Shown here piece by piece: positions 3,017 to 22,810 of a stretch of DNA of 23,508 bases. Origin of the DNA: a virus. A model generated the notes under the pieces. The model was not told where the DNA came from. It was given only the letters and a program-made list of their open reading frames with translations, and did not search any database. Position numbers and translations under genes: made by a program. The DNA lies in the IMG/VR virus record IMGVR_UViG_3300009149_000291, positions 1 to 23,508 of that record; one strand, written 5' to 3'. The first letter of the stretch is position 1; each line of letters opens with the position of its first letter.

Positions 3017-3024
3017 TATAAATA
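3017..3024 (-). promoter_or_regulatory. late-class promoter-like motif (TAATATTTATAAT) before the 143-aa gene
   Basis: On the coding strand the gap reads TTTAATATTTATAATAAAAC and the core TATTTATA ends 13 nt before the ATG. The same core recurs upstream of six other genes here. Confidence 0.5.
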
Positions 3025-3029
3025 TTAAA

Positions 3030-3695
3030 TCATTCATAACCTTTCAACAACTCAAAAATCTCATTTAAAGCTTCATGTCTGTGATTTTCTCTTAAAATAA
3101 TTTTATTAACAAACTGTGATTTATCTAACTTTGCTACTTCATGAATAGCAGAGTTATTTTTATATTTTAAGTCAATTTGTTGGCTATCTCCTGTAAAGAT
3201 CATAAATGAACCTTTCCCTAATCTTCCTAAACACATTTGAAGTTGCTGTTTAGTTAGGTTTTGAAACTCATCTACAATACAAATAGCATTTTCAAATGTC
3301 CTACCCCTAAAGTGAGTTAAGGAAACCAACTCAATGTTTTCTTCACTCTCCATTTTAGTTAGAATATCAGGTTTATTATACACTTTACGCATATTAGATC
3401 TGATAGGTACTAGCCATGGTTCTAACTTTTCTTCTAATGAACCTGGTAAGAAACCATTGTCTTCATTGGAAACTGTTGGGCGTGTTATGACAATTTTGTT
3501 GATTTGCCTTTTAAAAAACATATCAAGGGCAACTTGTACCGCCAATAATGTTTTACCACTTCCCGCCTTTCCTATCACAAAGTTGAATGGTCTTTGATAG
3601 ATTAGCTCTTTTGCTAATTTTTGTTCCCCATTCAACGTTATTGAAAACTTAATATTTCCCTTTGGCGGAACTTTCTCAATATTCTGCTTAGTCAT
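3030..3695 (-). CDS. phoH: PhoH-like P-loop ATPase
   Basis: 221 aa single-domain PhoH. The Walker A motif is GKAGSGKT at about residues 42-49. The ITRPTV and LPGSLEEKL segments follow, typical of PhoH. Walker B is CIVDEFQN and sensor-like motifs are IFTGDSQQIDL and LRENHRH. PhoH is a cytoplasmic ATPase related to helicase superfamily I; it is widespread in marine phages, and its role in infection is not settled. The gene lies between the decarboxylase-like gene and the neck genes, with its own late-class motif in the 23-nt gap upstream. This suggests expression with the virion genes rather than with replication genes. Length and motifs are complete, and the family assignment is secure. Confidence 0.93.
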   Translation of the reverse strand: MTKQNIEKVPPKGNIKFSITLNGEQKLAKELIYQRPFNFVIGKAGSGKTLLAVQVALDMFFKRQINKIVITRPTVSNEDNGFLPGSLEEKLEPWLVPIRSNMRKVYNKPDILTKMESEENIELVSLTHFRGRTFENAICIVDEFQNLTKQQLQMCLGRLGKGSFMIFTGDSQQIDLKYKNNSAIHEVAKLDKSQFVNKIILRENHRHEALNEIFELLKGYE

Positions 3696-3710
3696 AAAAC
3701 TACGTTTGTT

Positions 3711-3718
3711 TATAAATA
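3711..3718 (-). promoter_or_regulatory. late-class promoter-like motif before phoH
   Basis: The coding strand reads TTAATATTTATAAAC. The core TATTTATA ends 15 nt before the phoH ATG, and the motif starts right after the stop of the upstream gene. Confidence 0.5.
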
Positions 3719-4438
3719 TTAACGAAAGTTAATTTTCACAAGCTTATCCAATCCAGCCTCAACATGCATTTCATCATCTAGTAATACTTCAAAGTCAAAT
3801 CTTGGATCTAGTGGTAATACTAAGTCTACTTGAGAACCCCATCTTATTAAACTAAACCTTTCATTTTGACACATTGGTTCTTTCTGGAAGTTAACAAAGT
3901 GGGCTATAACATTTACATCTTCATCTGCGATTTGGACTAGATGGTACTTATAATCTAACTTAGCAGAGTATATAGTATTTCTCATTCTTTGATTATACTT
4001 AAGATACTCCATATTGTTAGGATTAATAGCCATATCTAGAATGTCTTTTTCCGTTGCTAACATTGGTCTATTCATAGACTCTATAGGATCTAACGGTTTA
4101 TATGAAAGAGTACCTGCATATGGTATACGGTTTATATGAACGTCATAAAATGACATAAATATACCAATTACTAGAGATGGTTGATTGTATTCTTTATCCT
4201 GTAGTACATCTTGTAAAGTGTAGTTTACACCTTTGATTTCAATAATAGGATCATTTGCATCTTCTACAAACTTTTGATAGAGAATAGTTCCATCTGCTGG
4301 GGAGTAGAAGTGTTGATAATCTATAAAGTTAGGACGAATAGGATCTCTAAAGAAGAAAGTATTTGATAACTCACCTACAGGTAATTTAGCTAACTCTTCT
4401 ACATCTGATTCTAGCCAATCTTCTAATGTTTTAGCCAT
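3719..4438 (-). CDS. psd: phosphatidylserine decarboxylase-like pyruvoyl enzyme
   Basis: 239 aa with the full motif order of short, soluble-type phosphatidylserine/archaetidylserine decarboxylases. SPADG (46-50) carries the Asp of the Asp-His-Ser autocleavage triad. KGVNYTLQDVL (69-79) is the conserved KG..Y.L..LL segment. DVHINRIPYAG (99-109) supplies His101. NERFSLIRWGSQVDLVLP (192-209) holds the Gly201-Ser202 site at which such proenzymes self-cleave to give a beta chain and an alpha chain with an N-terminal pyruvoyl group. Known members convert phosphatidylserine to phosphatidylethanolamine at the inner membrane. No membrane segment is visible. The ATG overlaps the stop of the amidinotransferase-like gene (TAATG), so the two are coupled. 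The substrate in the phage context is unknown; a free amino acid or a protein is possible. Confidence 0.85.
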   Translation of the reverse strand: MAKTLEDWLESDVEELAKLPVGELSNTFFFRDPIRPNFIDYQHFYSPADGTILYQKFVEDANDPIIEIKGVNYTLQDVLQDKEYNQPSLVIGIFMSFYDVHINRIPYAGTLSYKPLDPIESMNRPMLATEKDILDMAINPNNMEYLKYNQRMRNTIYSAKLDYKYHLVQIADEDVNVIAHFVNFQKEPMCQNERFSLIRWGSQVDLVLPLDPRFDFEVLLDDEMHVEAGLDKLVKINFR

Positions 4439-5352
4439 TACAGTAAAGTTTTATTTTGATCAACATAATTAAGATGCATTACCATACAAGATAGAAGAGC
4501 ACCTGACTTCATATACTCTGAGAGATTAAAGATTACAGGTTCTAAACCTTCATTAGAGCAAATTTTTTCTAGAGTATTAATTTTATTTCTTTCTAAATCA
4601 TAATTTTCATCTTTTATAGAAAGTTCAGATATATTAGAAGCACATAAAATCATGTTACCCATTCTTACAGAGTTAGTAATACCTCCAAAAGCATCACCTT
4701 CATTTATATCTATAACCCCAGTATGTTTTTCTATTTCAGCTATCTCTGAAGGGTCGAACATTTCGGTGCAAACTAGAGTTTTGTTTTTAGTTAACGGGAA
4801 AATTGAACAATCTAAGTGGTAGAGATAGTCTTCAACCATTTCTACTTTAATAATATTCATGTCAAAATTTTCTTCCATCCACTCATATGCTTCATACTCT
4901 GAGCGAATACCATACCCACCAATGTAAACATTATCATGTAAGTATTTAAGATCTGCTTCTCCTTCCCATTTATGAGGACACATATGAGTCTCATAATTCA
5001 TCATTTGGAAAAATGGTTTTCCTACTTTTTCCTCACCTCTTCTAGGTTCTGAGGTGAAGTTAGATAAGATAATATTATTTGAGTCTTTAATGTGAGGTAA
5101 GTAGATTCCTAAGTTAGCTACATAAACCAAATCTTGATACTCACCATAAGAAGGTAAAGTATACACTAATGAATCTCCTGCCATGAAATTATAGAGATCC
5201 ATAAACTGTCTGTAAGCTTTAGGTTTGTTAACTTTTAAATCTTCTTCTGATAACTCTTCCATCCATACATTATTTGGATTAGAAGTATCCAGCGAGAAAG
5301 GAAAATTCATTACAAAAGCTGGAAAAGGTAACTGTGATGGGGTTTCTTTCAT
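4438..5352 (-). CDS. amidinotransferase / dimethylargininase-like pentein-fold enzyme
   Basis: 304 aa with the guanidine-group-modifying (pentein) signature. QDLVYVANLGIYLP (73-86) is the first conserved strand pair. FTSEPRRGEE (99-108) resembles the PERRGE segment. EGEAD (130-134) corresponds to the EGxGD motif. YHLDC (178-182) gives catalytic His179. SGALLSCMVMHL (283-294) places the nucleophile Cys289 in the usual C-terminal position. Known relatives (dimethylarginine dimethylaminohydrolase, glycine and inosamine amidinotransferases, arginine and agmatine deiminases) form a covalent amidino-Cys intermediate. All catalytic elements seem intact, so it is probably active. The exact reaction cannot be read from the sequence. 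A late-class motif lies 27 nt upstream, just beyond the capsid terminator, and the stop overlaps the start of the decarboxylase-like gene. Confidence 0.82.
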   Translation of the reverse strand: MKETPSQLPFPAFVMNFPFSLDTSNPNNVWMEELSEEDLKVNKPKAYRQFMDLYNFMAGDSLVYTLPSYGEYQDLVYVANLGIYLPHIKDSNNIILSNFTSEPRRGEEKVGKPFFQMMNYETHMCPHKWEGEADLKYLHDNVYIGGYGIRSEYEAYEWMEENFDMNIIKVEMVEDYLYHLDCSIFPLTKNKTLVCTEMFDPSEIAEIEKHTGVIDINEGDAFGGITNSVRMGNMILCASNISELSIKDENYDLERNKINTLEKICSNEGLEPVIFNLSEYMKSGALLSCMVMHLNYVDQNKTLL

Positions 5353-5379
5353 TTTTATTTAGTTATTTATTTAAACAAC

Positions 5380-5387
5380 TATAAATA
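5380..5387 (-). promoter_or_regulatory. late-class promoter-like motif before the amidinotransferase-like gene
   Basis: The coding strand reads AGTATATTTATAGTTG. The core TATTTATA ends 27 nt before the ATG and lies just downstream of the capsid terminator, where a new transcript would have to begin. Confidence 0.45.
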
Positions 5388-5407
5388 TACTAGTCCCTAC
5401 TAGGAAT

Positions 5408-5436
5408 AAAAAAGAGCCTAGATTTCTCTAGGCTCT
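5408..5436 (-). terminator. strong rho-independent terminator after the capsid gene
   Basis: On the coding strand there is a perfect 10-bp stem, AGAGCCTAGA / TCTAGGCTCT, closed by a GAAA tetraloop and followed directly by a run of T. It begins 24 nt after the capsid stop codon. Confidence 0.93.
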
Positions 5437-5459
5437 CTTTCTAAGACATTATCTCTCTA

Positions 5460-7100
5460 TTAAAGAGTATCAAGTCCTGCTACGTAAATCTTACCGTAGA
5501 ATTCTGGTCTTAACATCTTCTTAGCGTAACGAGTTAAGAGACCTTTTCTTGGAGTGAAGGTATCTGGATCGTATACAAGAGGAGTCATGATAAGAGGAAT
5601 GTACGGAGCAAATGCAGCACCAGCTTCAAGGTATTGTGTACCTTTAAGACCCATTAAGATTGTATTACCATTCATGTATGGGTTTTTGTAAACTTGATAT
5701 CTGCTGTTAAGCTGACCTACTTTCTGAACACCGAATGCATAAGACATCTCAGCGGCATCACCATTATTAGCTGAAGCAAATCCTGGGATTGACTCAAGGA
5801 TAGTTGCAACAGTTGGAGAACATACTAAGAAGTTAGCACCACCTCTAAGAGTTTTCTGGTGAATGATGTTAGATACTTTTTGGATTTTAGTACCTAAAGT
5901 TTGGAACCACTGACCTTGTGAGTTGTAGAAACCTAAGTCAGTAGCTACACCTGAAGAATTTAGAGATTGGTTGTTCTGAGCTGACCATCTTTCAGTTGTT
6001 AAAGCATCATTGATTAACATATCAAGAATTTCTAAATCAACTTCCATTGAAATGTACTCACTCATGATTGAAGTTAATTCTGCTTCAGCATCTAAGTTTT
6101 GGTAAGCATTAAGGTCTTGTGCGAACTCAGGAGTCCATACTGCCTTAAGCTTTTTAGTTTTAGCTACGATAGCTTCTGACTTAAGCTTAACGTTAATTTC
6201 TGGGATTGAAATTGTAGAGTTATTAGCATTAAGAGAAGTATTACCATCTTCAAAATCACCTCTTGCATTATCTACAGGAGCTAACTGGAATGAAGCAGTA
6301 ACATTTGAATAAGAACCCTGTTCAGCACCTAATGAACCTGTTAAAACAAAAGTCACAGTGTTACCACTTACTGAGGTAAATTCAGGTAAATTATTAGCTT
6401 CATTGAAATCAGAACCTGAAGCGATTAAGAAACCTCTAGCAGCTTTTAAATCAGCATTTGTTCCAGTAAAGTCAATAGCAAGGGTTTTGTATGAATTAGC
6501 TGCTGCTGAAGCTGAGTAATTTGAGTCAAAGTTAAAATTAGCCCATGATGCAGTTGCTACTGTAGCAGTAAAGTAAGATGAGGTGTTTTGAGTAGAGTAA
6601 GTAAATCTACCAGCTCCATATAAACCATCAGTTGGGTTACCTGTAGCATTAGTTACACCATAAGTAGATCCTGATCCAAATACATCACCACCTACAGGGA
6701 ATGGAGTGTTAACACCTCCTCTAGCCTTATCAGTACCATATTGGTAATCAAGGAAGAATACAAGACCTGAAGGAAGAGACATTGGTTGAACTGAAACGAA
6801 GTCTTTCGCTGCAATTTGACCAAATACCTTTCTTACAAGTGGAAGAGCTACACCAGCCCAATTCTCACCAGTTCCTACTGTAAATGAAGCACCTGCTGTA
6901 CCACCACCAGTTTGTGATGATTCTACTACTAATTGTTTTGCTTGATTTTCAAGCATCAGAGCCATATTGGATCTGTCGTTTTTGTTTAATCCTTCTAAGA
7001 GACCTGTCTTTTCCCACTTTTTCGCAAGTCTAACAGCATCAGACTGTACGTTTTTCCACTGGGCAGAGCTCTCAAGGAGAGTTTGTAATTGATTTGCCAT
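5460..7100 (-). CDS. gp23: major capsid protein (gp23-like)
   Basis: 546 aa, close to T4 gp23 (521 aa). A charged N-terminal helix (about 1-60) ends in QLVVE60, followed by a flexible SSQTGGGTAGASF stretch. This resembles the segment removed from gp23 by the prohead protease after a [LI]xE-type site. The mature part starts with GENWAGVALPLVRKVFGQIAAKDFVSVQPM, a hallmark of T4-type capsid proteins (long segment at about residues 78-107). The Ser/Thr/Ala-rich region at about 150-280 is an insertion or surface domain. The C-terminal part carries KTLRGGANFLVCSP, then TPLVYDPDTFTPR, as in other gp23 proteins. It follows the scaffold gene after 14 nt and is closed by a strong terminator. No Shine-Dalgarno sequence precedes this highly expressed gene; the upstream bases are A/T only. 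Confidence 0.93.
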   Translation of the reverse strand: MANQLQTLLESSAQWKNVQSDAVRLAKKWEKTGLLEGLNKNDRSNMALMLENQAKQLVVESSQTGGGTAGASFTVGTGENWAGVALPLVRKVFGQIAAKDFVSVQPMSLPSGLVFFLDYQYGTDKARGGVNTPFPVGGDVFGSGSTYGVTNATGNPTDGLYGAGRFTYSTQNTSSYFTATVATASWANFNFDSNYSASAAANSYKTLAIDFTGTNADLKAARGFLIASGSDFNEANNLPEFTSVSGNTVTFVLTGSLGAEQGSYSNVTASFQLAPVDNARGDFEDGNTSLNANNSTISIPEINVKLKSEAIVAKTKKLKAVWTPEFAQDLNAYQNLDAEAELTSIMSEYISMEVDLEILDMLINDALTTERWSAQNNQSLNSSGVATDLGFYNSQGQWFQTLGTKIQKVSNIIHQKTLRGGANFLVCSPTVATILESIPGFASANNGDAAEMSYAFGVQKVGQLNSRYQVYKNPYMNGNTILMGLKGTQYLEAGAAFAPYIPLIMTPLVYDPDTFTPRKGLLTRYAKKMLRPEFYGKIYVAGLDTL

Positions 7101-7114
7101 TTTTGTTAATTTAA

Positions 7115-8134
7115 TTATTTAATAATTCCTGCTAATTTTTGCATTCTTGTAAATGCTTCATTTGACTCAACAATCTGACGCTTAGGAGCGACACCTGCAG
7201 CTTTAGAAGCCATACCTAATGATTCTTTAATTGGAGTAGCAGTTTTTGCTTTTAGTGACTCACTTAAAGTTTCATATACAAGTTTAACTTCTTTTACTGT
7301 TTCTGCTTTATCAAATGTAGATAAAACTTTTACTTTTTGTGATTCAGTTAAGTTTTTACTTCTGAAGATTTTGTTGGTATAAAGAAGTTTAGAATTTAAA
7401 AGATTACCTTCTTGAAGTTCAGACTTAAGAGTAGCTACAGCTTCATAAGCTTCTTCTAATTCTTTGTCTTTTTTCTTCATTTCAGCTTTCATCTTTTTAG
7501 CTTCTTCCATTTCTTTCTTGTAGCCTTCTTCTACTTCAGCTTCATCATCTAAAGACTCCATTTCAGCTAAAAGCTCATCAATAGAAATTTCTTCTTCATC
7601 TTCCATTTCTTCACCAGCTTCATCATCTTCAATATCAAGGTCGATTTCTTCATCTTCCATATTATCTCCGAATTTTTCACCAGCTTCAAGTTCTCCAGCT
7701 GCAACCATATCTTCGATCACATCTTCAATAAGATCTTTTAATTGTTCTTCAGTCATGTCTTCAAGTTCAACATCACCAAAATCCATTTCAAAATCTTCTT
7801 CTTCTTTTAAAGAATCTTTATCTTTAGCTTCATCCATTTCGTCTTTAGCTTCAGACATTTCTTCTTTTTCTAACTCAGCTAAGATCTCATCTAGATCCAT
7901 TTCATCCATCTTGTCTTTTCCATACCCTTCTTCCATTTCTGCCATAGAGTCGTCATAAGCTTCTTCCATTTTGTCTTCAGCTTCTTCAACATCCATTTCT
8001 TGAAGTTTTTGAGAGAGCATAGATTTGAGATGAGGGGTGAAAGCTTCTTCTAGAGCTGCCTTAGCGTTTGCAATAGCCATTTCCTTAACAGCTTTTGCAT
8101 CGGCAATAGCCTCTGTCAATAAATCTCTGTTCAT
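7115..8134 (-). CDS. gp22: prohead scaffold/core protein (gp22-like), hyperacidic
   Basis: 339 aa. The N-terminus MNRDLLTEAIADAKAVKEMA and the predicted helices up to about 60 are Ala/Glu-rich. Residues about 55-210 are extremely acidic, with long runs of Asp/Glu and Met. Residues about 210-250 form a Lys/Glu coiled coil. The C-terminal 90 residues (LLYTNKIFRSKNLTESQKVKVL and onward, ending FTRMQKLAGI) match the gp22-type tail. In T4 the gp22 core shapes the prohead and is then degraded by gp21. Position between protease and capsid genes is canonical. The acidic insert makes it longer than T4 gp22 (269 aa). The coding strand is rich in GAA and GAT, so plus-strand open frames across it are artefacts. 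Confidence 0.88.
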   Translation of the reverse strand: MNRDLLTEAIADAKAVKEMAIANAKAALEEAFTPHLKSMLSQKLQEMDVEEAEDKMEEAYDDSMAEMEEGYGKDKMDEMDLDEILAELEKEEMSEAKDEMDEAKDKDSLKEEEDFEMDFGDVELEDMTEEQLKDLIEDVIEDMVAAGELEAGEKFGDNMEDEEIDLDIEDDEAGEEMEDEEEISIDELLAEMESLDDEAEVEEGYKKEMEEAKKMKAEMKKKDKELEEAYEAVATLKSELQEGNLLNSKLLYTNKIFRSKNLTESQKVKVLSTFDKAETVKEVKLVYETLSESLKAKTATPIKESLGMASKAAGVAPKRQIVESNEAFTRMQKLAGIIK

Positions 8135-8263
8135 TTGTCCTAAAATTTTGTTTGGGAAATACGTTTATTAAGAAACGTAATAAGAATTAATTATTTGAGA
8201 AACACCATATAGATGATGGTGTATTGGGTCGGGGGATACATATATGAAAAATTTGAAAAACGC
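8135..8263 (-). promoter_or_regulatory. leader region of the scaffold-capsid unit with two hairpins
   Basis: The region lies between the protease terminator and the scaffold start and holds no gene. Two inverted repeats are present: ACACCAT / ATGGTGT at 8202-8208 and 8216-8222 (7 bp, 7-nt loop), and ACGTTT / AAACGT at 8161-8166 and 8173-8178 (6 bp, 6-nt loop). A C-rich patch (coding strand ATCCCCCGACCC) stands out from the AT-rich surroundings. A promoter for the scaffold-capsid unit is expected here, but neither of the two motif classes seen elsewhere in the window is present. Confidence 0.5.
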
Positions 8264-8293
8264 AAAAAAAAACCCTCCTTTTTAAAGGGAGGG
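8264..8293 (-). terminator. rho-independent terminator after the protease gene
   Basis: The coding strand has CCCTCC / GGAGGG (6 bp) around a 9-nt A/T-rich loop, followed by nine T. It lies about 26 nt past the protease stop and separates the prohead-core genes from the scaffold-capsid unit. Confidence 0.9.
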
Positions 8294-8318
8294 CTTTAAA
8301 TTAAATATTTTTAAGATT

Positions 8319-8930
8319 TCAAAATATAGGACATTGTCCTTGAGCACATAAAATTTCCGTTACAATTGAATTTACTTTAGCATACTTATTTTGAGATTGG
8401 AAAACTTGTTTTCCTTCTCTAAGAACATTCATATAAGAGCCTGGGTTTGAAGGAGTTGAAACAAAATCCCAACATAATAATTCAAAATCATCTTGAACTT
8501 CTAATACTTCTCCTACTTGCTGCAATGAACCCATACCTCTAGAAGACACACCTACTGTAATATTATTTTTTAGAAGTTCTTTTAATATATTTCCTGATGG
8601 GGTAGGTAGGATCTCAATCATACCCATAATATTATCTCCTTCCCAAAATACTTTTCTAATATTATGGGATACATTTTTTAAATTAATAATAGTTGAGTCA
8701 GGGTGGTCAAGTTCTCCTAATGCTCTATTTTCTTTGACACAAGGTAAATAATTATTTATTTCTCTCTGCCATAATTCTCTAGAATAATACCTACCGTTAC
8801 CATTTTTAACCTCAACAGTGGCTAATATACCTTCAACTAAAGGATTCCCCTTATCACTAAGTTTTCCTTCAGAAAGTGTTACTCTATTAGGAGTAAAGAG
8901 TTGGGTTTCTATAAGTAATTCTTTATTCAT
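8319..8930 (-). CDS. gp21: prohead maturation protease (gp21-like)
   Basis: 203 aa, similar in size to T4 gp21 (212 aa). Motifs of the T4-type prohead serine protease are clear: [12 protein letters not shown] (43-54), then GELDHP with catalytic His76, then [10 protein letters not shown] with the nucleophile Ser129 or Ser130, then [13 protein letters not shown]. This enzyme, inside the prohead, cleaves core and capsid proteins after [LI]xE-type sites before DNA packaging. Its own N-terminus MNKELLIE8|T contains such a site and resembles the scaffold N-terminus MNRDLLTE8|A. The start overlaps the upstream 394-aa gene by four bases (ATGA). The gene ends the prohead-core unit and is followed by a terminator. 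Confidence 0.9.
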
Positions 8931-10111
8931 AATTGTCTTCCATTTTCAAATGAAATTATAGTCATATCATCATCATACCAATCTGATATTTTGTAAGAAC
9001 CATCAGGTAATTCATTTACATGTTGAACTACTCCTTGTTTTTTAGATATTTCTTGAGCATATTTTACAGCTTCATTATAAGATTCAATATAATCAGAAGT
9101 ACCATATTCATTCAATCCTTGTTCTTGATTTTTTCTATTTGATGTATGATCTTCATTTAACTCTTCTTTAATTATACTTCTGATAGCTTTTCTAAGTTTA
9201 GATTCATTTTGTTCCTTTATCATAGATGCTCTTTTTTCAATCTCATCTAATCTCATTTCTAATTTACCTCTCTTAGTGATTAACTTTTGAATTTGATCAT
9301 CAATCTTATTTAATTTATCACCATACTCATCAGCAATTGGACCACCTTCTGGCTCAGCCTCTTGTTCCATATCGATTAGCAACTGATCTCTATCAGAGTA
9401 TAGATTCTCTAGATCTTGGCTAATTTGCCATATATCATCTTCAACCTTTTGTCTTTGTTTACCATAAAGTGGTCTACGTTTTGGTTTTGCAAGTTCTTTT
9501 TCACGCTCCATTTTAGCAGCTCGTGCTTTTACTAAAATAGGATCATTATAATCTAAAGCCTCTTTTAAATCACCATACCCTGAAGATTTATACTTACCTG
9601 TAATTTCTTTAGGAGTTAAACCAGGTGCTTCATCTGTGTATCCTATACTATCTACTTTAAAAGCAGCATTTTTAGTATAATAGATTGGATCTGAGGCTAA
9701 GTTTTTGGCTACAATTTCTCGAGCTTTTTCCATAGTTAATTCAGGATCCTTTTTTAACTCTACATATAGACCATTAAGGTATTGATCAAATATTTGATTG
9801 TCTAAATTTTTCTTATCAGCATTATCATACCCATGGGCATTAATGTCTTCTACTTCTTTTTCAGGTTTAGTATTTTCTTCAAATACTTTAATCCAATCTT
9901 TTTTAGACTCATCTTTTAAACTACCAAGAGCAGGAATTCCTACTATATTTTCAGAAATTACCCCTTTGTTTTTTAAAATAGTTTCTGTCTCTTTAAAGTT
10001 TGAAGAGTTAGTAAGTAGATTAGGATAAAGACGTTTTGCTTCTTTAAGAAAAACACTTTTTTCACCTTTACCTTCTGATATTAGGTTATATTGATTCTGT
10101 AATGATTTCAT
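8927..10111 (-). CDS. probable prohead-core or internal head protein, unknown family
   Basis: 394 aa, strongly charged (Lys/Glu/Asp), with long helices and a coiled coil at about 220-310. I do not recognise a named family. The N-terminus [14 protein letters not shown] looks like a T4 capsid-targeting peptide (T4 internal proteins begin MKTYQEFIAE|A), including a terminal [LI]xE-type cleavage site. Residues 305-320 carry [15 protein letters not shown], a helical motif also seen in neighbouring proteins. The last 35 residues ([20 protein letters not shown] and on) look like a small beta domain. Position between portal and protease corresponds to the T4 gp67/gp68 core genes. The start overlaps the upstream gene by four bases and the stop overlaps the protease start. 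Confidence 0.65.
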
Positions 10112-10419: not shown

Positions 10420-10939
10420 ATAAGTCTATATAGTCAATACCTTTAGATTGCTTACGTAATTTATCTTTATCAACTAACTCATATCCCATTTTTAGATATT
10501 GGGGAATAGGAGGTTTAGTATCTTTTTTTCTAAAAGCATATTTAGTTAAATAATCTCCTCCAGCTGCAGTAGTTGAAATTTCTTTAACTTTATTTCTAAT
10601 TAATTCTCTTAAATTAGCCTCATTTATTGATCCTCCTCTTTTGATTCTTTCATAATCATTAGGGTATTTTTTTCTGAGGTGGGTTCTATATTTGTTAAAT
10701 ATATTATTTAAGTCATTGGCTATTTGATCTAGAACTTTGTCTTGGGATATGAGAGCTTGCATAGAAGGTTCACTAACACCTTTTCCACTAGCTACTTCAT
10801 CCATAGCATCTCTAGCTTTTTCTAGGTTATCATACACTAAATCAAAGTCAGGTAAATAAATTACCTCTGACTCTGAAGATCCAATTTCTGGGTTTAATTC
10901 TGTATCTCTAAATTCAAATCTAGCCATTTGCTTTATCAA
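10403..10939 (-). CDS. conserved-looking head-core protein, unknown function
   Basis: 178 aa, helical and charged. Residues 62-101 form a helical stretch rich in Lys, Arg and Asp. Residues 107-121 hold NEANLRELIRNKVKEIS, the recurrent LRxxIR helix motif. After it comes AAGGDYLTKYAFRKKDTKPP. I cannot name a family, but this C-terminal segment resembles proteins I associate with the portal-protease interval of other marine T4-like phages. Starting at Met1 gives a 20-nt overlap with the preceding gene; Met5 (10927) gives an 8-nt overlap (ATGGCTAG) and is a good alternative. Confidence 0.6.
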   Translation of the reverse strand: MIKQMARFEFRDTELNPEIGSSESEVIYLPDFDLVYDNLEKARDAMDEVASGKGVSEPSMQALISQDKVLDQIANDLNNIFNKYRTHLRKKYPNDYERIKRGGSINEANLRELIRNKVKEISTTAAGGDYLTKYAFRKKDTKPPIPQYLKMGYELVDKDKLRKQSKGIDYIDLFEDEK

Positions 10940-11780
10940 TTTCTTCTATTAAAGCATAATATTGAAGTAAGTTTACAATATCATCATTTTTAATAAAAGT
11001 ACCTTTAGGAATTTCTTTAATTAAATTTACAATCTCAGTAACCTTAATACGAGTTGCTTTATCTCTAACTTTTCTAGATCTTTTAGTCAACTCTTCTTTA
11101 ATTTCTACTACTTTTTCATTGTGAAAGTCTTTTAATTTAGCAGTAGAGTCTACTGAGTTTATGTAGACTTGAAGAACTTTCTTTTGACTCTCATTTAAAT
11201 TAGCATACTTACCATTAAATTTATCCATCATAATACGGTAAGTAAGAATTTTAGTGTCTCTGTCTTCTTTAGAAAACTCCTCCATCAATTTATCTTTAAC
11301 TTCTGCTTTGTCAGGAGTTTTATTAGATATAATTTCTAGAAGAGTAAATTTATTATTGATGATTTCATCAGTGTCTAGTAATTTTTCTTCATTACTGTAG
11401 GCCTCTATTAGAGTATAGAGAGCAGCATACCCTTTGTAATTTGCTATCTTGGTTTTAAAGAAATCATCTAAATCATAATGACTTTTAATTTCATTAATTA
11501 AGTTATACTTTTCCCTTTTTAGTTTACTTCTGCTAAGTTTTTTAGATGACTCTAAAATAGTATTAAGTAAAATATCAGCTTTAGTTTCTGAGAGAGTAGT
11601 GTTTTTGAATACAGTCTCATAGAGTTTATATTCTTTACCCAACTCAGTGTTAGTAAAAGATGATTTTAAGATTCCAATAGCCTGTGATTTCCCTCCAGAC
11701 AATGTCTCAGCAGTAATTTTACGGACTAAAAGTTCAAAAATTAATCCGGTATTTTTATACTTTGAGTGTTTAATTTTCAT
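10920..11780 (-). CDS. conserved T4-like marine phage head-assembly candidate
   Basis: 286 aa, helical and Lys-rich, with no enzyme motifs. The N-terminus reads KHSKYKNTGLIFELLVRKIT and is followed by FTNTELGKEYKLYETVF and LKREKYNLINEIKSHYDLDDFF, with an ANYKGYAALYTLIE motif at about 118. I remember a very similar KNTG[IL]LFELLVRQ ... TELGKE ... KYNLIKEIK pattern from proteins next to portal genes in marine T4-like phages, but their function is unknown. It lies directly after the portal gene in a 38-nt gap that holds a late-class motif, so it starts the prohead-core unit that ends at the protease. Confidence 0.68.
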   Translation of the reverse strand: MKIKHSKYKNTGLIFELLVRKITAETLSGGKSQAIGILKSSFTNTELGKEYKLYETVFKNTTLSETKADILLNTILESSKKLSRSKLKREKYNLINEIKSHYDLDDFFKTKIANYKGYAALYTLIEAYSNEEKLLDTDEIINNKFTLLEIISNKTPDKAEVKDKLMEEFSKEDRDTKILTYRIMMDKFNGKYANLNESQKKVLQVYINSVDSTAKLKDFHNEKVVEIKEELTKRSRKVRDKATRIKVTEIVNLIKEIPKGTFIKNDDIVNLLQYYALIEEIDKANG

Positions 11781-11799
11781 TTTACAATAAGGGTATATT

Positions 11800-11807
11800 C
11801 ATAAATA
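11800..11807 (-). promoter_or_regulatory. late-class promoter-like motif before the 286-aa gene
   Basis: The coding strand reads GTAATATTTATGAATA. The core TATTTATG ends 19 nt before the ATG, with one mismatch to TATTTATA. Confidence 0.45.
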
Positions 11808-11818
11808 TTACAAAACTT

Positions 11819-13702
11819 CTACTCCTTAATTTGATTTTCATCTAATAAGGACTCTTTACCTTTATCTGATTCAAACACAAGCTGTTTTTTATTAACAGGT
11901 AATTTATCTAGAAACTTTTTATGTTTAAGATATTCAAGTTTTGCATTTATACTAGGTTGTTTAGACTCCTCTGTAGTGTCTTTCATTCTACTAACACCTA
12001 ATCTATCTCTTCCTAATGGGTCATTTTGAGTGTTTATAAATGAAGCTTTTTCTTTTGGTCTACCTAATTTCTTTTCATCATACCCTTCTGGCACTTCTGG
12101 CTCAGAGTAATATCTACCTTTACCATACTGAGATGCTAAGTCATGAGGTGTTCCATAACTTACACCTGATTCACTTGGATCATTTCCTTCACTTCCAATT
12201 TGAGATAATCTAAACTTACGTTTAGCATCTTCTCTAATTAAGTCTCTATACTCAATATACTCATCTTCACTAAAGTCAAACAGTTGATCATAAACCCAAT
12301 CTGAAGGGAGTAAATTATTATCTAGAATAGTAGTAGCTAAGTCTACTTTTTCTTTAAGTAAGGCTACTTTTTCTTGTTCGAAGATAATTGATGGGTTAGT
12401 TAAGTCAATTTCAAAGTTTGTTAAACTTTCACCCTCATATCCTTGTGTGTATAAATGAACTAAAGCTATTTTATATAACTCAGACAATATAATCTTTTGT
12501 ATTCTTTCTACGGTTCTAGCAAATCTAATATCTTGTGCTGCTAATGTAGCTTTACCTTCTAAGTTTTCATCATAACCCATGAAAGCTTTAGGTACTTTAA
12601 GTGCAGCAAATAATTTGTCTCTTAGATACTCAACATCTTGAATCCCATCCCACTGTAAACCACTTAAATTATCAATTTTAGTTGCAGAGTCATTACCTCT
12701 AATAGGAATGTAAAAATCCTCAAGTAAATTCTGCATGTTGTATTTTAGGTTGTAGTCTCCTGTATTTTGATCAATGTAAGGGGTACGCTTCATAGTAGAT
12801 ATAGTCTTTTGAATGAAGTTATCTACTTCTGAAGGTGGGATTGAACCAATGTTTATATAGAAAATACGTTTTTCTGGGGCTCGAACAATTCTATGAACTA
12901 ACATAGCATCTTCCATCAGAACGTATTGTTTAAATAGTTTACGAGCTGGTTCTATGTAAGAACGCCCGTAAGGTAAATAATTAACATCTGAAATTAAGCG
13001 GAAATGAGCAATTTCATAATTATCAAAGATAATTTTACGTCCAGTATCAATAGTTTGAGAGGAAGTAATTAATCCTCCATAATATCCTCCATACTGACCA
13101 CTACCTGCTAAACCATCAGGATCAAATATAAATCTTACCTCATTTGGATTTTCATGGTTAAATCCTTCTTCTCTAACAATATTGTATGCGGTGTAAGGAA
13201 TGACATTGTAAACACCAAATTTTTCAGCAATTTCTAATTTTAAGAAGAAGTCACCATACTTACACATTTGACGAATCCAAGACCATAAATTAAACTCAAT
13301 ATTCAATACATCATAAAATAAGTTATAAAGTATCTTTTGAATATTTTCATCTGTGGATTTAATTTGTAAAACTTCTCCTTGTTCATTTTTTAGAGTAGCT
13401 TCATCTGATACAATATCTAAAGCAGATGCTATAATTGCATCTGTATCCATTGCTTCATAGTCAGAGTAAAGTTGAGTTCTTAATACTTGGTAGTTAAGTC
13501 CTGGGTTGTATATAGGGGCTACATTTGTAGTATTTAGTCTACTATATCTGTCAATTAAAGAGTTAGTTTGGATTTGTCCTGCTCTTTGTACTTGGTTAGA
13601 ATCAACTAATTTAAGTTGATTACCTCCCACATTTCTAATGATTACATCAGTAGAAAATAAACGTTTTAGTCTTGAGAATACGTCTTTATTTACGCTTGCC
13701 AT
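11819..13702 (-). CDS. gp20: portal vertex protein (gp20-like)
   Basis: 627 aa; T4 gp20 has 524, and the extra length is mostly a C-terminal extension. Diagnostic segments are YSDYEAMDTDAIIASALDIV near residue 80, then the central RSYIEPARKLFKQYVLMEDA and MLVHRIVRAPEKRIFYI stretches, then KVPKAFMGYDENLEGKATLA and QDIRFARTVERIQ. These occur in T4-type portals, which form the dodecameric gate for DNA entry and exit. The C-terminal 100 residues (after DEYIEYRDLIRE) are polar and charged, probably disordered. The gene follows the terminase after an 18-nt gap holding a late-class motif only 10 nt before the ATG. Function is secure. Confidence 0.95.
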   Translation of the reverse strand: MASVNKDVFSRLKRLFSTDVIIRNVGGNQLKLVDSNQVQRAGQIQTNSLIDRYSRLNTTNVAPIYNPGLNYQVLRTQLYSDYEAMDTDAIIASALDIVSDEATLKNEQGEVLQIKSTDENIQKILYNLFYDVLNIEFNLWSWIRQMCKYGDFFLKLEIAEKFGVYNVIPYTAYNIVREEGFNHENPNEVRFIFDPDGLAGSGQYGGYYGGLITSSQTIDTGRKIIFDNYEIAHFRLISDVNYLPYGRSYIEPARKLFKQYVLMEDAMLVHRIVRAPEKRIFYINIGSIPPSEVDNFIQKTISTMKRTPYIDQNTGDYNLKYNMQNLLEDFYIPIRGNDSATKIDNLSGLQWDGIQDVEYLRDKLFAALKVPKAFMGYDENLEGKATLAAQDIRFARTVERIQKIILSELYKIALVHLYTQGYEGESLTNFEIDLTNPSIIFEQEKVALLKEKVDLATTILDNNLLPSDWVYDQLFDFSEDEYIEYRDLIREDAKRKFRLSQIGSEGNDPSESGVSYGTPHDLASQYGKGRYYSEPEVPEGYDEKKLGRPKEKASFINTQNDPLGRDRLGVSRMKDTTEESKQPSINAKLEYLKHKKFLDKLPVNKKQLVFESDKGKESLLDENQIKE

Positions 13703-13712
13703 TATATTTTAT

Positions 13713-13720
13713 TATAAATA
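13713..13720 (-). promoter_or_regulatory. late-class promoter-like motif before the portal gene
   Basis: The coding strand reads TTTAATATTTATAATAAAA, nearly identical to the copy before the 143-aa gene. The core ends 10 nt before the ATG. Such a short leader raises the question of whether it is a promoter or a translation signal. Confidence 0.5.
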
Positions 13721-15307
13721 TTAAATGAGCCAACTAAAATCCTCAGTTCCTCCTTTTCCATTATCCATATGATAAGGATTGTCTGAACCTTGGGAGAATG
13801 GTGATGCTGATCTAGCACCTATTCTATTAGCGGTCATATTACTTAATGCTTTTCTTGTTAAATCTACGCCCTGTTCTTTAAATCTCAAAGCTGTATCTCT
13901 AATATACATACCTTGAGCGAAACTCATTACTAAGTCATCATTGTATCCTGACTGAGCTTCTGCTCTTCCATTTTTCCATATAAAAACTCTCATTTCCTCA
14001 ATCAGTCTTTTTGATTTGATAGTAACTCCTCTGTCACCTATGTACTCTACAAATTTAGATATTACCATAGGTCTAGTTCTAGAAGACATAGTAAATCCAG
14101 GAGTCATATTTTTTGTACTATCATACCCTCCATTAAGATAAGAATCAACTGTGAAGGAGTCACTCTTAGGTGAGTAGTATAAATTTTTATATTCTCTGTC
14201 TATTGCGGTTTGTATAGATGCCCAACCAATGTTTGCATTTTCTATAACTAGTAAAGCATTATTATACTCTGTAGCTATACCAACTAATAAATTACCAAAG
14301 TCTTTAGTTGAAATTTGACCTTTATACTCAGCCACTTGAGTATTACTTTCTAAATCCATTACATGAAAAGCAGAAAAGTCTTTACTGTCCCCTCTAGCTA
14401 CGTCAGCAGTTACCATATAACTTCTTGAGTAGTCAGGTGACTCCCAAACCCATAAATTTTTGTCTACTCCTCTTCTTTCTAGAGGATCACAAACATAAGT
14501 TTTATTGTAAAATTCTAAGTACTCATTGTAGAATACTATATCGCCTGATGTGGAAAAATCACAATCACACTCTTGAGCTGCAATTCTAGGATCACCTAGT
14601 AAAGTATCTTGCTTATTTCTCCATGCTTGATCTCTTTCAGGATGGACATACCAAGGTAGTTTAATAGGTAAGAAGTCATTTATTTGTTCTTCAGCTTCAA
14701 CCCATGTTTTATGGAACCAATTACCTGTACCATAAGGAGTACTTAATACAATTGAACCACCACCAGTGGCTAGGGTTTGTTGAGATGAAGCCCATATCTC
14801 ATTAATACCTTCAATAAAAGCTGCCTCATCAATTAATAGCAAAGACACTGCTTCTGATCTACCTGCATCAGAAGAGGCTGAAGATGCTTTAATTTGAGAT
14901 CCATTTTTTAGTCTTAGAGATAATTTGTTATTTTCTTCAAAATCTACTCTTAACCAAGAGGGTAAACTGTCGTACATGAACTTTACTTTAGTTACCATGT
15001 TTCGAGCAGTTTCTTGTTTAGTTGCTATACATAAAACATTTTTGTCTTTATGAAATAACATTAACCATAAGGAGTATCCTGCAACTAGAGTAGAAATACC
15101 TAACTGTCTAGATTTATTAATTATACAGTAGCCATTATTTTGAAATAAACTTAAAACTTTTTCTTGAAAAGGATAGAGTTGGAAATGTATTCTACCTCTT
15201 TGGGGGTGTTGTATCTGGCAGTATTTCTTCATGAAGTGTATAGGATCTGTAGCACATCTTAAATACTCCTTTTTAATTATATCCTTTATAGTTTTTTCTT
15301 GATTCAT
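13721..15307 (-). CDS. terL: terminase large subunit (gp17-like)
   Basis: 528 aa. The ATPase domain has an adenine-binding FQ region (HFQLYPFQ), a Walker A variant SRQLGIST (66-73), Walker B LLLIDE (156-161) and coupling motif STPYGTG (189-195). The RNase H-like nuclease has Asp302 (VTADVARG), Glu356 (LLVIENANIG) and Asp457/Asp458 (YNDDLV), giving the usual acidic triad. It packages DNA through the portal and cuts concatemers. T4 gp17 is 610 aa; this protein lacks the N-terminal extension. The ATG overlaps the upstream spanin-like gene by four bases. No small terminase is evident in the window. Confidence 0.96.
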   Translation of the reverse strand: MNQEKTIKDIIKKEYLRCATDPIHFMKKYCQIQHPQRGRIHFQLYPFQEKVLSLFQNNGYCIINKSRQLGISTLVAGYSLWLMLFHKDKNVLCIATKQETARNMVTKVKFMYDSLPSWLRVDFEENNKLSLRLKNGSQIKASSASSDAGRSEAVSLLLIDEAAFIEGINEIWASSQQTLATGGGSIVLSTPYGTGNWFHKTWVEAEEQINDFLPIKLPWYVHPERDQAWRNKQDTLLGDPRIAAQECDCDFSTSGDIVFYNEYLEFYNKTYVCDPLERRGVDKNLWVWESPDYSRSYMVTADVARGDSKDFSAFHVMDLESNTQVAEYKGQISTKDFGNLLVGIATEYNNALLVIENANIGWASIQTAIDREYKNLYYSPKSDSFTVDSYLNGGYDSTKNMTPGFTMSSRTRPMVISKFVEYIGDRGVTIKSKRLIEEMRVFIWKNGRAEAQSGYNDDLVMSFAQGMYIRDTALRFKEQGVDLTRKALSNMTANRIGARSASPFSQGSDNPYHMDNGKGGTEDFSWLI

Positions 15308-15720
15308 ATAAGTAATATTGCTATTATTACTAAAATAGCTCCCCCCAATCCTAACTTCTTTCCTCTAACATGACGTTCAATCTCTTCATCTTTTTCTTGA
15401 ATTTGTTTAATATAAAGAGAGTCTACTTGTTGGTAGGTTTTAATCTGGGTTTGGTAGATTGTTTCTTTTTCTTGATAAGAAGAAATTAGAGTATCTTTAT
15501 ATTGGATATTCTCTTCAAGTAGTAAAATGTTATTTTCTAATACTTGATTTTCTTTTTCACATGCTTTTCCTTCTTCTAAATCAATGATTATTTCTTTGGC
15601 TACTTTTATAGGCAGACATATTAATGTATCATTGTTGGATGTTATACTCACTTGCGAAATACAAGTAAACGTCATTAGAAGTAAAACTGTTGATATCGTC
15701 AATTGTTTTATCAAGATCAT
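15304..15720 (-). CDS. exported coiled-coil protein with C-terminal membrane segment, u-spanin-like
   Basis: 138 aa. Residues 1-23 form a signal peptide (basic start, TISTVLLLMTFTCISQ). Cleavage after SQ-type residues by signal peptidase I, or lipidation at Cys20 through a non-canonical lipobox (TFTC), are both possible. Residues about 50-115 form a Gln/Glu-rich coiled coil. Residues 123-138 (KLGLGGAILVIIAILLI region) form a C-terminal membrane anchor. Signal or lipid at one end, coiled coil, and inner-membrane anchor at the other end is the layout of unimolecular spanins, which fuse inner and outer membranes at lysis. Its first 92 nt overlap the preceding gene in another frame, as spanin genes often do. 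The function is an inference from topology. Confidence 0.6.
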   Translation of the reverse strand: MILIKQLTISTVLLLMTFTCISQVSITSNNDTLICLPIKVAKEIIIDLEEGKACEKENQVLENNILLLEENIQYKDTLISSYQEKETIYQTQIKTYQQVDSLYIKQIQEKDEEIERHVRGKKLGLGGAILVIIAILLI

Positions 15721-15979
15721 CTTTTATGGTTGATATCCTTTTATTATTATCTTCAATTCTACTTGAAACTTGTATGAGTGAGTCTTGAACACTAACTATA
15801 TTGGTGTTAATAGTTACTAAAGTTTCATTACTCAATTTAATTGACTGCTTCAGTGAATCTATTTCAGCTTGAGTTTTAGAATATATATCACTTTTATTAG
15901 AGAAATTAATATAGCCTCCTAGGTACAGAGAAAGAAATCCTAAAATTAGGATAGCTAAATATAAATAATCTCGCTTCAT
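15629..15979 (-). CDS. membrane-anchored coiled-coil protein, i-spanin-like
   Basis: 116 aa. A positively charged start (MKRDY) precedes one membrane segment at about 5-25 (YLYLAILILGFLSLYLGGYI). The rest is predicted periplasmic coiled coil (DSLKQSIKLSNETLVTIN, then repeated DSL/SRI heptads). This is the topology of an inner-membrane spanin (Rz). Its last 92 nt overlap the next gene in a different frame. The start overlaps the upstream gene by four bases (ATGA). There is no endolysin or holin nearby to confirm a lysis cassette, so a structural or other envelope role cannot be excluded. Confidence 0.58.
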   Translation of the reverse strand: MKRDYLYLAILILGFLSLYLGGYINFSNKSDIYSKTQAEIDSLKQSIKLSNETLVTINTNIVSVQDSLIQVSSRIEDNNKRISTIKDDLDKTIDDINSFTSNDVYLYFASEYNIQQ

Positions 15980-16776
15980 TTTTCTAATTGAAACCTAAGA
16001 GTTTCTAACTCTTTAATTTGTTTTTTTATATTATTAATCTTAACACTTAAATCATCTGCTTCTTCTTTTTTACTTTCATCAGTCATTATTTTAGATAACT
16101 GATTTTGGTTTGATTTAAGTTCTTTTCTAAGTCTAACTAATTCTTTTATTGTAAAGTCTAATTTCTCCTCAGAGTTTTTTTTTTTAGATTCATCAAGAGT
16201 TTTATAATCTGTGGGTTTAGCTATAGGTTGTAATTTATATCTAAAAAGAAAACCTTCAAATTGATCATACCATTTATCACTTTTGTTAGTAGGTACATAA
16301 ATTACTTTAAAAGGATTAACTTTATTAGTAGGATCCATTTCGTATTTTATCCCTAATTGATCCAATTGGATTTGAATAGCCTTAACGTGATTATTTATAT
16401 TAAATTTAGGTTTTTGGTTTTCATCAGTTCTGCTTAAAGCTTTAAGTTTTTGAGAACGTTTTTTAAGTTCTGTTTTGGATTGGTGTATAACCCTATCTAA
16501 CCTAAGAATTTCATCATCATTACTTTTTTGAAATTCTTTTTCTCTTTGTTTAATAAGTTCTTGAAGAAAACCTATTAATTCATTATTAGAATAACCTTGA
16601 AACCTATCTACATTAAATTTAGAGTTTTTATTTTCTTTAGTTAAACCTAATTCATCAGATAGTTCTTTAGTTTTTTCAAGTTCTTTATTAAGTTCTTTAG
16701 CAGACTCAACATCTTCTTTAGATACTTCTTGGAGAATTATTTCTTTGATATACTCTTTAAGGTCTTTTTTAGTCAT
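15976..16776 (-). CDS. coiled-coil protein of unknown function
   Basis: 266 aa, very rich in Lys and Glu, with no Cys. Three coiled-coil stretches lie at about 1-45, 65-115 and 205-266. Between them is a small globular part at about 123-190 (HVKAIQIQLDQLGIKYEMDP, then FEGFLFRYKLQP). The N-terminus MTKKDLKEYIKEIILQEV carries the amphipathic motif seen in the head-core proteins. No known family recognised. Its ATG overlaps the stop of the P-loop gene, and a late-class motif lies 15 nt upstream inside the end of that gene. Proximity to terminase and the shared motif suggest a virion or assembly role. Confidence 0.6.
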   Translation of the reverse strand: MTKKDLKEYIKEIILQEVSKEDVESAKELNKELEKTKELSDELGLTKENKNSKFNVDRFQGYSNNELIGFLQELIKQREKEFQKSNDDEILRLDRVIHQSKTELKKRSQKLKALSRTDENQKPKFNINNHVKAIQIQLDQLGIKYEMDPTNKVNPFKVIYVPTNKSDKWYDQFEGFLFRYKLQPIAKPTDYKTLDESKKKNSEEKLDFTIKELVRLRKELKSNQNQLSKIMTDESKKEEADDLSVKINNIKKQIKELETLRFQLEK

Positions 16777-17321
16777 TTGATATGGTTTTGGTATAAATAT
16801 TGCATATCTGTAACTTCTTTAATTTGTTGAATTCTTTCTTCAGTAGTTCCTTTAATTGTATGATAAGTAGGAACATATTTAAATAAAAGCCTTTGAATAG
16901 TACTGTCAATTTCATCTCGATAAGAAGAGTTAGTTTCTCTTACCCCATTATCTTCAATAGCTACTCCTTCAGGAGAAACATAAAAGATGTAATCATATTT
17001 TTTAATAAAACGTTTAGCATACTCTGCAAAAGCATCATTGTCAATGTAACTTACTTTTTGAGCACATTGGGTAAATGACATCACATCTATAATTGTTCTA
17101 TCAGTTATTATATTGTCCTGCATTAACTCTGTAACACGTTCTGCCAAAAATATAGTTTGACCTTCTATAGTGGTTTGATGATTGAGAGGAATACCTAATG
17201 AGTTTAGATATTTACTTCTTTCACAAGCTATTTTATAATTTTTAAATTCAGGAAGTTTAGCTAATTCTTTAACTAGAGTAGTTTTTCCTACAGAAACTGT
17301 TCCACAAAAACCTATTTTCAT
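16773..17321 (-). CDS. AAA_28 / NadR-like P-loop NTPase
   Basis: 182 aa. Walker A is GTVSVGKT (7-14), followed by a CERSKYL segment and a second conserved stretch IITDRTIIDVMSF, as in NadR C-terminal kinases and AAA_28 proteins. KYDYIFYVSPE and a late YRDEID helix complete the pattern. Relatives are small nucleoside or nicotinamide-riboside kinases and phage NTPases. The substrate here is not evident. The gene sits between a 74-aa gene and the coiled-coil gene and overlaps the latter by four bases. The assignment to a kinase-like P-loop family is firm; the precise reaction is not. Confidence 0.8.
   Translation of the reverse strand: MKIGFCGTVSVGKTTLVKELAKLPEFKNYKIACERSKYLNSLGIPLNHQTTIEGQTIFLAERVTELMQDNIITDRTIIDVMSFTQCAQKVSYIDNDAFAEYAKRFIKKYDYIFYVSPEGVAIEDNGVRETNSSYRDEIDSTIQRLLFKYVPTYHTIKGTTEERIQQIKEVTDMQYLYQNHIK
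16792..16799 (-). promoter_or_regulatory. late-class promoter-like motif before the 266-aa gene
   Basis: The coding strand reads GCAATATTTATACCAAAACC. The core ends 15 nt before the ATG. It is embedded in the 3' end of the P-loop gene, so it is kept despite coding constraint. Confidence 0.45.
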
Positions 17322-17332
17322 ATTTCTTTATA

Positions 17333-17557
17333 TTAATGTTCAGAACAATAAAGAATAAAGTCATCAATAATGGCTTTACCTTCATCATTAAGTTTAGATT
17401 TATAATTTTCTAAAGTTAAGAAAGGATTTGTAGACTCCAAAATTAATGGTTTGCAATTTTGTAAGATGCTTTCACTTAATTTTATTTGTTCTGGGGATTC
17501 ATCTCCAAAAGCAAACATATCATCTAGGTAGTTTTCTATAAGGTTTAAGTATTTCAT
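17333..17557 (-). CDS. small hypothetical protein
   Basis: 74 aa at the longest start, acidic and helical, no family recognised. The Met1 start overlaps the end of the DUF6884-like gene by 38 nt. Met14 at 17518 lies one base after that gene's TGA (TGATATG), the same spacing used between the gp13 stop and the mini-ORF, and gives a 61-aa protein; it may be the true start. It is followed after 11 nt by the P-loop gene. Confidence 0.55.
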   Translation of the reverse strand: MKYLNLIENYLDDMFAFGDESPEQIKLSESILQNCKPLILESTNPFLTLENYKSKLNDEGKAIIDDFILYCSEH

Positions 17558-18005
17558 ATAATATAGATGTTAATTTAGTTGTAATTTCTTTGATTTGATT
17601 TTTAAGCCATTGTTTTTGTTGGCCAATTCTTTTACCTTTCATAGGTATTTCATAATTTCCAAGTTCTGGAATAATGTATTGGTTATAAGCATTTCCTGCT
17701 AGAATTATAAATTTGTCTTTTTCTAAATTATGACCTTTACTTTTAAGTTGTGATACTACTTTAGAAGCCCATTCTTTTCTTTCATCTGCTTTCATATCTT
17801 TTAGAGTCATATCATAAGGTTCTATCTTTTTATTCATAGGTAAAAGATGATGTTTAGCTGATAAGATATACATAGCAGATGGGGATAAACTTTCCCCATA
17901 AGCTAGTGATTTTTTAAATAAATCAGATTGATATAAGTCTTTAGCAGGTGCTGCTTTATCTAACTTTTGAGCCACACAACTCAAAAGAACTATTGTTTTA
18001 GCCAT
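17520..18005 (-). CDS. DUF6884-like protein
   Basis: 161 aa. The N-terminus VLLSCVAQKLDKAAPAKDLY resembles the S-C-x-x-K ... A-x-x-L-Y-x-S opening of DUF6884 proteins, followed by LFKKSLAYGE, ILSAKHHLLPMNKKIEPYD, then LAGNAYNQYIIPELG, then a final IGQQKQWLK. Such proteins look distantly like YaaA-type or nucleobase-handling enzymes, but their biochemical role is not established to my knowledge. Cys10 and His53/His54 could be functional residues. It has its own late-class motif 13 nt upstream, which suggests it is the first gene of the late-type half of the window. Confidence 0.7.
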   Translation of the reverse strand: MAKTIVLLSCVAQKLDKAAPAKDLYQSDLFKKSLAYGESLSPSAMYILSAKHHLLPMNKKIEPYDMTLKDMKADERKEWASKVVSQLKSKGHNLEKDKFIILAGNAYNQYIIPELGNYEIPMKGKRIGQQKQWLKNQIKEITTKLTSILYEILKPYRKLPR

Positions 18006-18018
18006 ACTACGGTTTTAT

Positions 18019-18026
18019 AATAAATA
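18019..18026 (-). promoter_or_regulatory. late-class promoter-like motif before the DUF6884-like gene
   Basis: The coding strand reads GTCATATTTATTATAAAACC. The core TATTTATT has one mismatch to TATTTATA and ends 13 nt before the ATG. It is the rightmost copy of this class. Confidence 0.42.
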
Positions 18027-22767: not shown

Positions 22768-22810
22768 TATTTATATTATAAAGATAAGAAAAGGTCTGAC
22801 CAAAGCCAAA
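22768..22810 (-). promoter_or_regulatory. early-class promoter-like element before the 81-aa gene
   Basis: The coding strand has TTTG (22807-22810), exactly 20 nt, TATCTTTA (22779-22786), 3 nt, then TATAAATA (22768-22775). The ATG is 27 nt downstream of the last box. Confidence 0.66.

Follow-up and report, generated by a model that had tools for sequence, protein, structure and literature searches.

In a lineage of T4-like phages of Bacteroidota, the octamer TATTTATA and the A-rich flank downstream of it very probably constitute a -10-type late promoter. The element was studied in a fragment of an IMG/VR virus (IMGVR_UViG_3300009149_000291; 23.5 kb, 31% GC), analysed over its whole length of 23,508 nucleotides (nt) and called the window below, and in related phages. 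Sequence conservation, position, strand, association with one class of genes and lack of a -35 element are the observations that support this reading. The original prediction, made from the window only, had proposed that a diverged late sigma factor recognizes the motif as a late promoter; the rank of the motif, its tie to virion genes, its -10-only architecture and the presence of a gp55-like protein in the lineage all speak for this proposal. Searches of the open-licence PMC literature, mostly at the level of listings, gave no description of a late promoter or late sigma factor for these phages. Published work is cited by PMC number, on the basis of parts of each article.

The larger open reading frames (ORFs) of the window are all on the (-) strand. 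PHROG matches were obtained for portal, large terminase, prohead protease, major capsid, neck protein and PhoH, and the virus is a T4-like myovirus. By terminase, the closest isolates are the Flavobacterium phage immuto (about 60% identity) and then the Microcystis phage Mel-JY01 (53%). Seven copies of the motif had been claimed, and all were found on the coding (-) strand, 10-27 nt before an ATG. Five are exact copies of TATTTATA, at 3017..3024 (13 nt before gene 2572-3003), 3711..3718 (15 nt before the PhoH-like gene 3030-3695), 5380..5387 (27 nt before gene 4438-5352), 13713..13720 (10 nt before the portal gene 11819-13702) and 16792..16799 (15 nt before gene 15976-16776, within the end of the upstream ORF). 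The other two carry one mismatch: TATTTATG at 11800..11807 (19 nt before gene 10920-11780) and TATTTATT at 18019..18026 (13 nt before gene 17520-18005). The flanks are similar as well, TTTAATATTTATAATAAAA being present twice, before genes 2572-3003 and 11819-13702. A position weight matrix (PWM) trained on IMG/VR sequences found five of the seven sites, with none on the reverse strand, and 15 sites in immuto, one of them reverse. It missed 5380, which is under its threshold, and 11800; site 18019 scored 11.8.

The motif had been said to fill nearly every gap of the left and middle parts. It was present in six of the eight gaps of at least 15 nt, but site 16792 lies inside an ORF. By direct reading, the two remaining gaps contain a variant octamer (before gene 7115-8134, described below) and nothing (before gene 769-1278). 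Its claimed absence from the right part is true of the exact form only; one-mismatch forms precede two of the six right-side genes. Within 45 nt before each of the 22 left-side genes, the exact form was counted five times against a mean of 0.34 in random sequence of the same composition, and none of 1000 dinucleotide shuffles was as high. One-mismatch matches before these genes were not significantly enriched (7 versus 4.25; 41 of 400 shuffles as high) and were dropped as evidence; over the whole window they showed no excess (89 versus 110 expected). Since the exact count is in excess and the one-mismatch counts are not, the signal resides in the exact form of TATTTATA.

Motif discovery was extended beyond the window, and TATTTATA was the top or near-top upstream 8-mer in 80 related IMG/VR loci, in immuto and in Mel-JY01. 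The 80 loci (capsid 60-90% identity) contain 1122 predicted genes on the matching strand, whose starts are longest-ORF calls. These loci share ancestry, so that counts overstate the number of independent events: at most 40 nt upstream of genes, TATTTATA was found in 289 copies on the coding strand versus 2.1 expected, with 51 copies in the opposite orientation and 55 in coding sequence. Among all 8-mers it ranked second, and the first, ATATTTAT, is the same motif shifted by one base. In the complete genome of immuto it ranked first among upstream 8-mers (24 versus 0.26 expected). Twenty-six of the 30 exact forward copies in that genome were outside predicted ORFs (9.1 kb), and the reverse strand had 15 in all. 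As a positive control, the T4 late region was submitted to the same procedure, and the T4 late octamer TATAAATA ranked first.

The motif is associated with virion genes. With immuto genes classed by the author from the product labels in the record, TATTTATA was found before 8 of 24 virion or lysis genes and before one of 49 other named genes (Fisher p = 3.8e-4). Exact copies also recur upstream of orthologues of the window genes: 13/14 for the 143-amino-acid gene, 51/55 for gene 10920-11780 (286 amino acids), 36/50 for the neck gene, 11/16 for gene 4438-5352, 30/48 for the portal and 15/48 for PhoH. None was found before protease (0/66), terminase (0/41), core (0/33) or capsid (0/75) orthologues; the immuto terminase does have TATTTATA upstream. 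In the Rhodothermus phage RM378, the variant TATTTAAA was the top upstream 8-mer of the first 50 kb, where 9 of its 12 copies are at most 60 nt from an annotated start. Copies of it stand before the genes for tail sheath and tail tube, which lie on opposite strands in this phage.

The core had been described as the reverse complement of the T4 late promoter. The match is exact but coincidental: the octamer is near-palindromic, and its direct reading differs from TATAAATA at two positions. Antisense T4 late promoters, in which TATAAATA on the opposite strand would drive transcription away from the gene, would account for this match, and are nevertheless very improbable. The orientation bias (289 versus 51) goes against them, no gene of the window is oriented that way, and the conserved flank is on the gene side; an antisense promoter would have this flank upstream of -13, in a region without conservation in T4.

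The alignment of 279 unique contexts gave a conserved block consisting of A, TATTTATA, A, n, A, A, A, A, which stops sharply 6 nt after the octamer. Downstream A frequencies were 91, 70, 90, 80 and 83% at offsets 8, 10, 11, 12 and 13. No -35 element was seen in these contexts, no position 20-45 nt upstream of the octamer being above about 0.3 bit. In T4 numbering, the octamer covers -13 to -6 (T-13 A-12 T-11 T-10 T-9 A-8 T-7 A-6), the A-run -5 to +1 and the whole block -14 to +1. An RNA processing site, or chance A/T richness, has a practically negligible probability: intergenic DNA is A/T-rich and the window has no excess of one-mismatch matches, but dinucleotide shuffles failed to produce the motif, the other A/T 8-mers listed for the 80 loci showed no comparable enrichment, and the end of conservation is sharp.

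The distance to the ATG separates the promoter reading from another one, also raised in the original prediction, in which the motif is a leader element, that is an A/T-rich sequence recruiting ribosomes to genes without a Shine-Dalgarno sequence. The motif is mostly located 7-45 nt before ATGs. Translation in F. johnsoniae is helped by A at -3, -6, -12 and -13 (PMC6847099), and the A-run lies at about -11 to -14 when the octamer has one of its most frequent spacings. The spacing is loose, however: distances of 12-20 nt predominate and 0/325 are of 4-6 nt. The A-run keeps to the octamer in the distance classes from 7 to 30 nt and is partly weaker at 31-45 nt. Because it stays with the octamer across ATG distances, it is part of the octamer element and not of the start codon. 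Moreover, the motif is missing before the core and capsid genes and the operon-internal protease and terminase genes, and is almost never found before named metabolic genes (1/49). A translation leader is thus improbable, and this half of the original prediction was abandoned.

The element taken as a late promoter resembles that of T4, which is served by gp55, gp33 and gp45, in having an A/T box of 8 bp located one helical turn ahead of the inferred start (PMC2988020), an A/T-rich downstream segment, no -35 conservation and a location before virion genes. Six of the eight octamer bases are the same (T-13, A-12, T-11, A-8, T-7 and A-6 of TATAAATA), and A-10 and A-9 are changed to T in TATTTATA. 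Among the bases kept, A-12 and A-8 are two of the three that T4 gp55 flips into pockets. Lineage-specific variants of the late octamer are known in KVP40, S-PM2 (NATAAATA) and Aeh1, which varies at -13/-12 (PMC2984593, PMC2988020). In the variants named in the consulted parts of these articles the outer bases -13/-12 are changed, unlike here, where the inner bases -10/-9 are changed.

A host promoter was also considered, the octamer being then the -10/-7 box of a host sigma factor and not of a phage one. Flavobacterial sigmaA boxes are likewise A/T-rich (TAnnTTTG, PMC9723704), and the Bacteroidota sigmaA consensus combines this -7 box with TTTG at -33 (PMC9723704, PMC6847099). However, TATTTATA fits neither TAnnTTTG nor the SM5/SM6 boxes (PMC9723704) and has no -33 TTTG, and the same phages have clear host-type promoters elsewhere, in the right part of the window and at 60-80 kb in immuto. 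A host promoter is accordingly most improbable.

A gp55-like sigma gene was then looked for. A remote relative of gp55 is encoded by immuto (KNV73_gp118, labelled hypothetical). From sequence profiles and a structural model, gp118 is probably a late sigma factor, which would work without a detectable clamp. T4 gp55 is phrog_234, and this profile matches gp118 weakly (E-value 0.008 in the immuto genome, 0.5 at library scale). Conversely, the gp118-family profile has no match in T4 itself. Profile-profile comparison of the family with nine gp55s (hhalign) gave a collinear match over 102 columns with an E-value of 3e-4. Pfam Sigma70_r2 was found in 18 of 30 family members (best 0.0072) and phrog_234 in 12 of 30 (best 0.026), all weakly. 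An AlphaFold model was obtained for one IMG/VR family member, with a predicted local distance difference test (pLDDT) score of 77. When the Foldseek candidates were compared with this model in VIA, T4 gp55 in its promoter complex came first (7d7c_F, Z 9.9, 127 residues, root-mean-square deviation 6.0), rows within Z 1 counting as tied. By title, all but three of the 50 rows listed are sigma or RNA-polymerase promoter-recognition chains. The sequence-profile and structural tests, each weak taken singly, thus agree on homology to sigma region 2.

T4 gp55 stacks A-12 on Y97 (PMC7892883). The corresponding Y95 is invariant in the family (30/30), so that the collinear region 2 match retains the A-12 tyrosine. 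At the positions of H95 and T99, the pockets of gp55 for A-9 and A-8, the family mostly has F/Y and Q/G instead. The acidic residues E66, D67, D/E71, E78 and E79 are near E70, D74 and E77, the acidic clamp-helix contacts of T4 gp55, in a gapped part of the alignment. The family also differs from gp55 by about 100 C-terminal residues. Folded alone, they gave a pLDDT of 87 but no useful structural match (Foldseek best E-value 1.7; VIA best Z 5.3, with an unrelated protein); these searches speak neither for nor against a region-4 fold. A clamp-binding tail (hydrophobic/acidic, LDFLYE-like) was absent from the family alignment, by eye, and present in five of the nine gp55 rows. Also unlike T4, no gp45-type clamp was found: phrog_223, PF02916, PF02768 (DnaN) and PF00705 (PCNA) had no match in immuto, Mel-JY01, RM378, G010 and G011, in which a very diverged clamp could escape detection. 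In the control, phrog_223 and PF02916 did find T4 gp45. No sequence in the PDB was matched by the sigma profile. The second late-sigma family, phrog_12791, was tried as a candidate reader and rejected, as it matched T4 only.

Candidate relatives of gp118 number at least 600 in IMG/VR. Others are present in Mel-JY01 and LR756508, and a remote one in RM378 (Rm378p020, E-value 8e-8). One contig (G005/L032) has a sigma-family relative, the motif and a related capsid gene together. Scans of viral contigs with the capsid protein and with the sigma family both gave very many matches, and the lineage is thus abundant; a dependable late-promoter motif would allow late genes and operons to be labelled in its uncultured genomes. 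Mel-JY01 is recorded from a cyanobacterium and has the TATTTATA-type upstream motif and the sigma-family protein, as the Flavobacterium phages do; its host label may deserve a check.

Several results weigh against a late promoter read by this sigma factor. An exact copy is missing before 16 of the 24 immuto virion or lysis genes, which fits operons without proving them, and the single motif-bearing gene with a metabolic label in immuto is labelled PduO. In the T4 late region TATTTATA itself occurs upstream in four copies and ranks fifth, so a lone match is weak. Among 278 unique motif-gene pairs, counted without one site close to the end of a contig, 10 have the ATG only 2-4 nt past the octamer, and in four immuto genes it is 1-4 nt past it. 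Concerning gp118, the probability of the hhalign match is just 40%, no single family member has a strong PHROG or Pfam score, Foldseek with the full model found nothing below an E-value of 0.001 (best 0.31), and a Z of 9.9 is in the range for which the tool warns about helical models. Finally, the window virus is a fragment, and the sigma gene was not seen in it.

With T4 spacing, transcription of the genes with such close ATGs would start inside or after the start codon, unless it begins a few bases further upstream and yields leaderless mRNAs. For four of the nine upstream copies of TATTTAAA in RM378, the distance to the ATG is 5 nt. Leaderless late mRNAs are possible for octamers close to the ATG, because the predicted RM378 start coincides with the A of the ATG. 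In Flavobacterium psychrophilum, 5.5% of mRNAs are leaderless (PMC9723704). An ATG 2-3 nt after the octamer is found in a small group of genes about 80 codons long and in some further genes (in L039, L041, L061, L077, L078 and others).

Under the late-promoter reading, the host RNA polymerase would be equipped with a gp55-like sigma factor encoded by the phage (immuto gp118 family) and would open the DNA at the octamer. Transcription would start about 6 nt downstream and give virion mRNAs with short leaders. The capsid operon would use a variant octamer, TA[C/T]GTATA, instead, and early or middle genes, such as those in the right part of the window, would use host-type TTTG/TATCTTTA promoters.

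The variant, another difference from T4, is TATGTATC in the window (8235..8242, (-) strand, about 100 nt before gene 7115-8134). In register with TATTTATA, TA[C/T]GTATA differs at one or two positions. Ten of 81 loci were dropped for having too little upstream DNA. In the other 71, ATA[CT]GTAT was found upstream of the core/major-capsid pair in 65, one of these matches (L043) being in coding sequence. In three of the six loci without the variant (L015, L020, L023), TATTTAT takes its position 108-109 nt upstream of the ATG, an argument for regarding the variant and TATTTATA forms as equivalent. A terminator-like hairpin followed by a T-run was read directly at 8264..8295 (-), just upstream of the variant promoter.

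The leader of the capsid operon contains two RNA hairpins, each with a covarying 7-bp stem, at 8202..8222 (-) for hairpin 1 and 8160..8179 (-) for hairpin 2. Fifty-five distinct leaders were delimited, excluding L043. A first alignment of 47, from which four mis-delimited and four divergent leaders were left out, had 99.5% of cells paired and both-sided changes in 112 cells, involving 11 of 14 pairs. With all 55, 97.8% of cells were paired and 121 had both-sided changes; none of 500 shuffles reached these levels of pairing and covariation, and the signal was lost when the partners were slid. These alignments are strong evidence that the two-hairpin leader is a conserved RNA structure. Protection of the mRNA would suit as its role, since hairpin 1 begins near the predicted 5' end. 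No Rfam family matched in the window, and the leader has the appearance of a structured RNA element of the lineage that is so far undescribed. The leader (8132-8243, (-) strand) lies between the variant promoter and the ATG of the core gene, and its spacing is conserved in the 55 related leaders.

Taken as a whole, the system may be a clamp-free relative of T4 late transcription. Bacteroidota phages would then use a gp55-like sigma factor that has a new C-terminal domain where gp55 has its clamp-binding tail and that recognizes TATTTATA, or TATTTAAA in the case of RM378. The capsid operon would be distinguished by a promoter variant of its own and by its conserved two-hairpin leader, which would probably stabilize or tune the most abundant mRNA. 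This combined proposal is tentative, and we rate it slightly below an even chance.

Four host-type promoters were located on the (-) strand in the right part of the window. The sequence CTTG-N20-TATCTTTA is at 19097..19128, before gene 18030-19076, and TTTG-N20-TATCTTTA is at 20359..20390 (before the ATPase gene 19162-20331), 22461..22492 (before gene 21257-22444) and 22779..22810 (before gene 22495-22740). The spacing is identical in all four, and TTATCTTTA occurs on the coding strand of the window only there. They resemble the Bacteroidota sigmaA promoter, as do the immuto boxes at 60-80 kb. In the four window promoters, the -7 box and the -33 TTTG (CTTG in one) were found, with a final A where the sigmaA consensus has G. 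With these four boxes on the right side, the window holds a border between late-type and host-type promoters, located between genes 17520-18005 and 18030-19076.

The immuto boxes belong to a cluster of small genes and have the form GTTG + TAT[A/C]TTTAG, with 23 of 30 forward copies within 60-80 kb. Early transcripts of immuto would start after TATATTTAGG. At 60-77 kb of immuto (L087), a repeated early-type sequence, GTTGC(y)...TATATTTAGGTATCAATAATTAAAAC, stands before most of the small cluster genes, for example from 67665 to 76244. In the window, GC-rich short inverted repeats are located inside the N20 spacers at 19097-19128, 22461-22492 and 22779-22810 (-), so that the terminator of one gene may overlap the promoter of its neighbour at these spacers.

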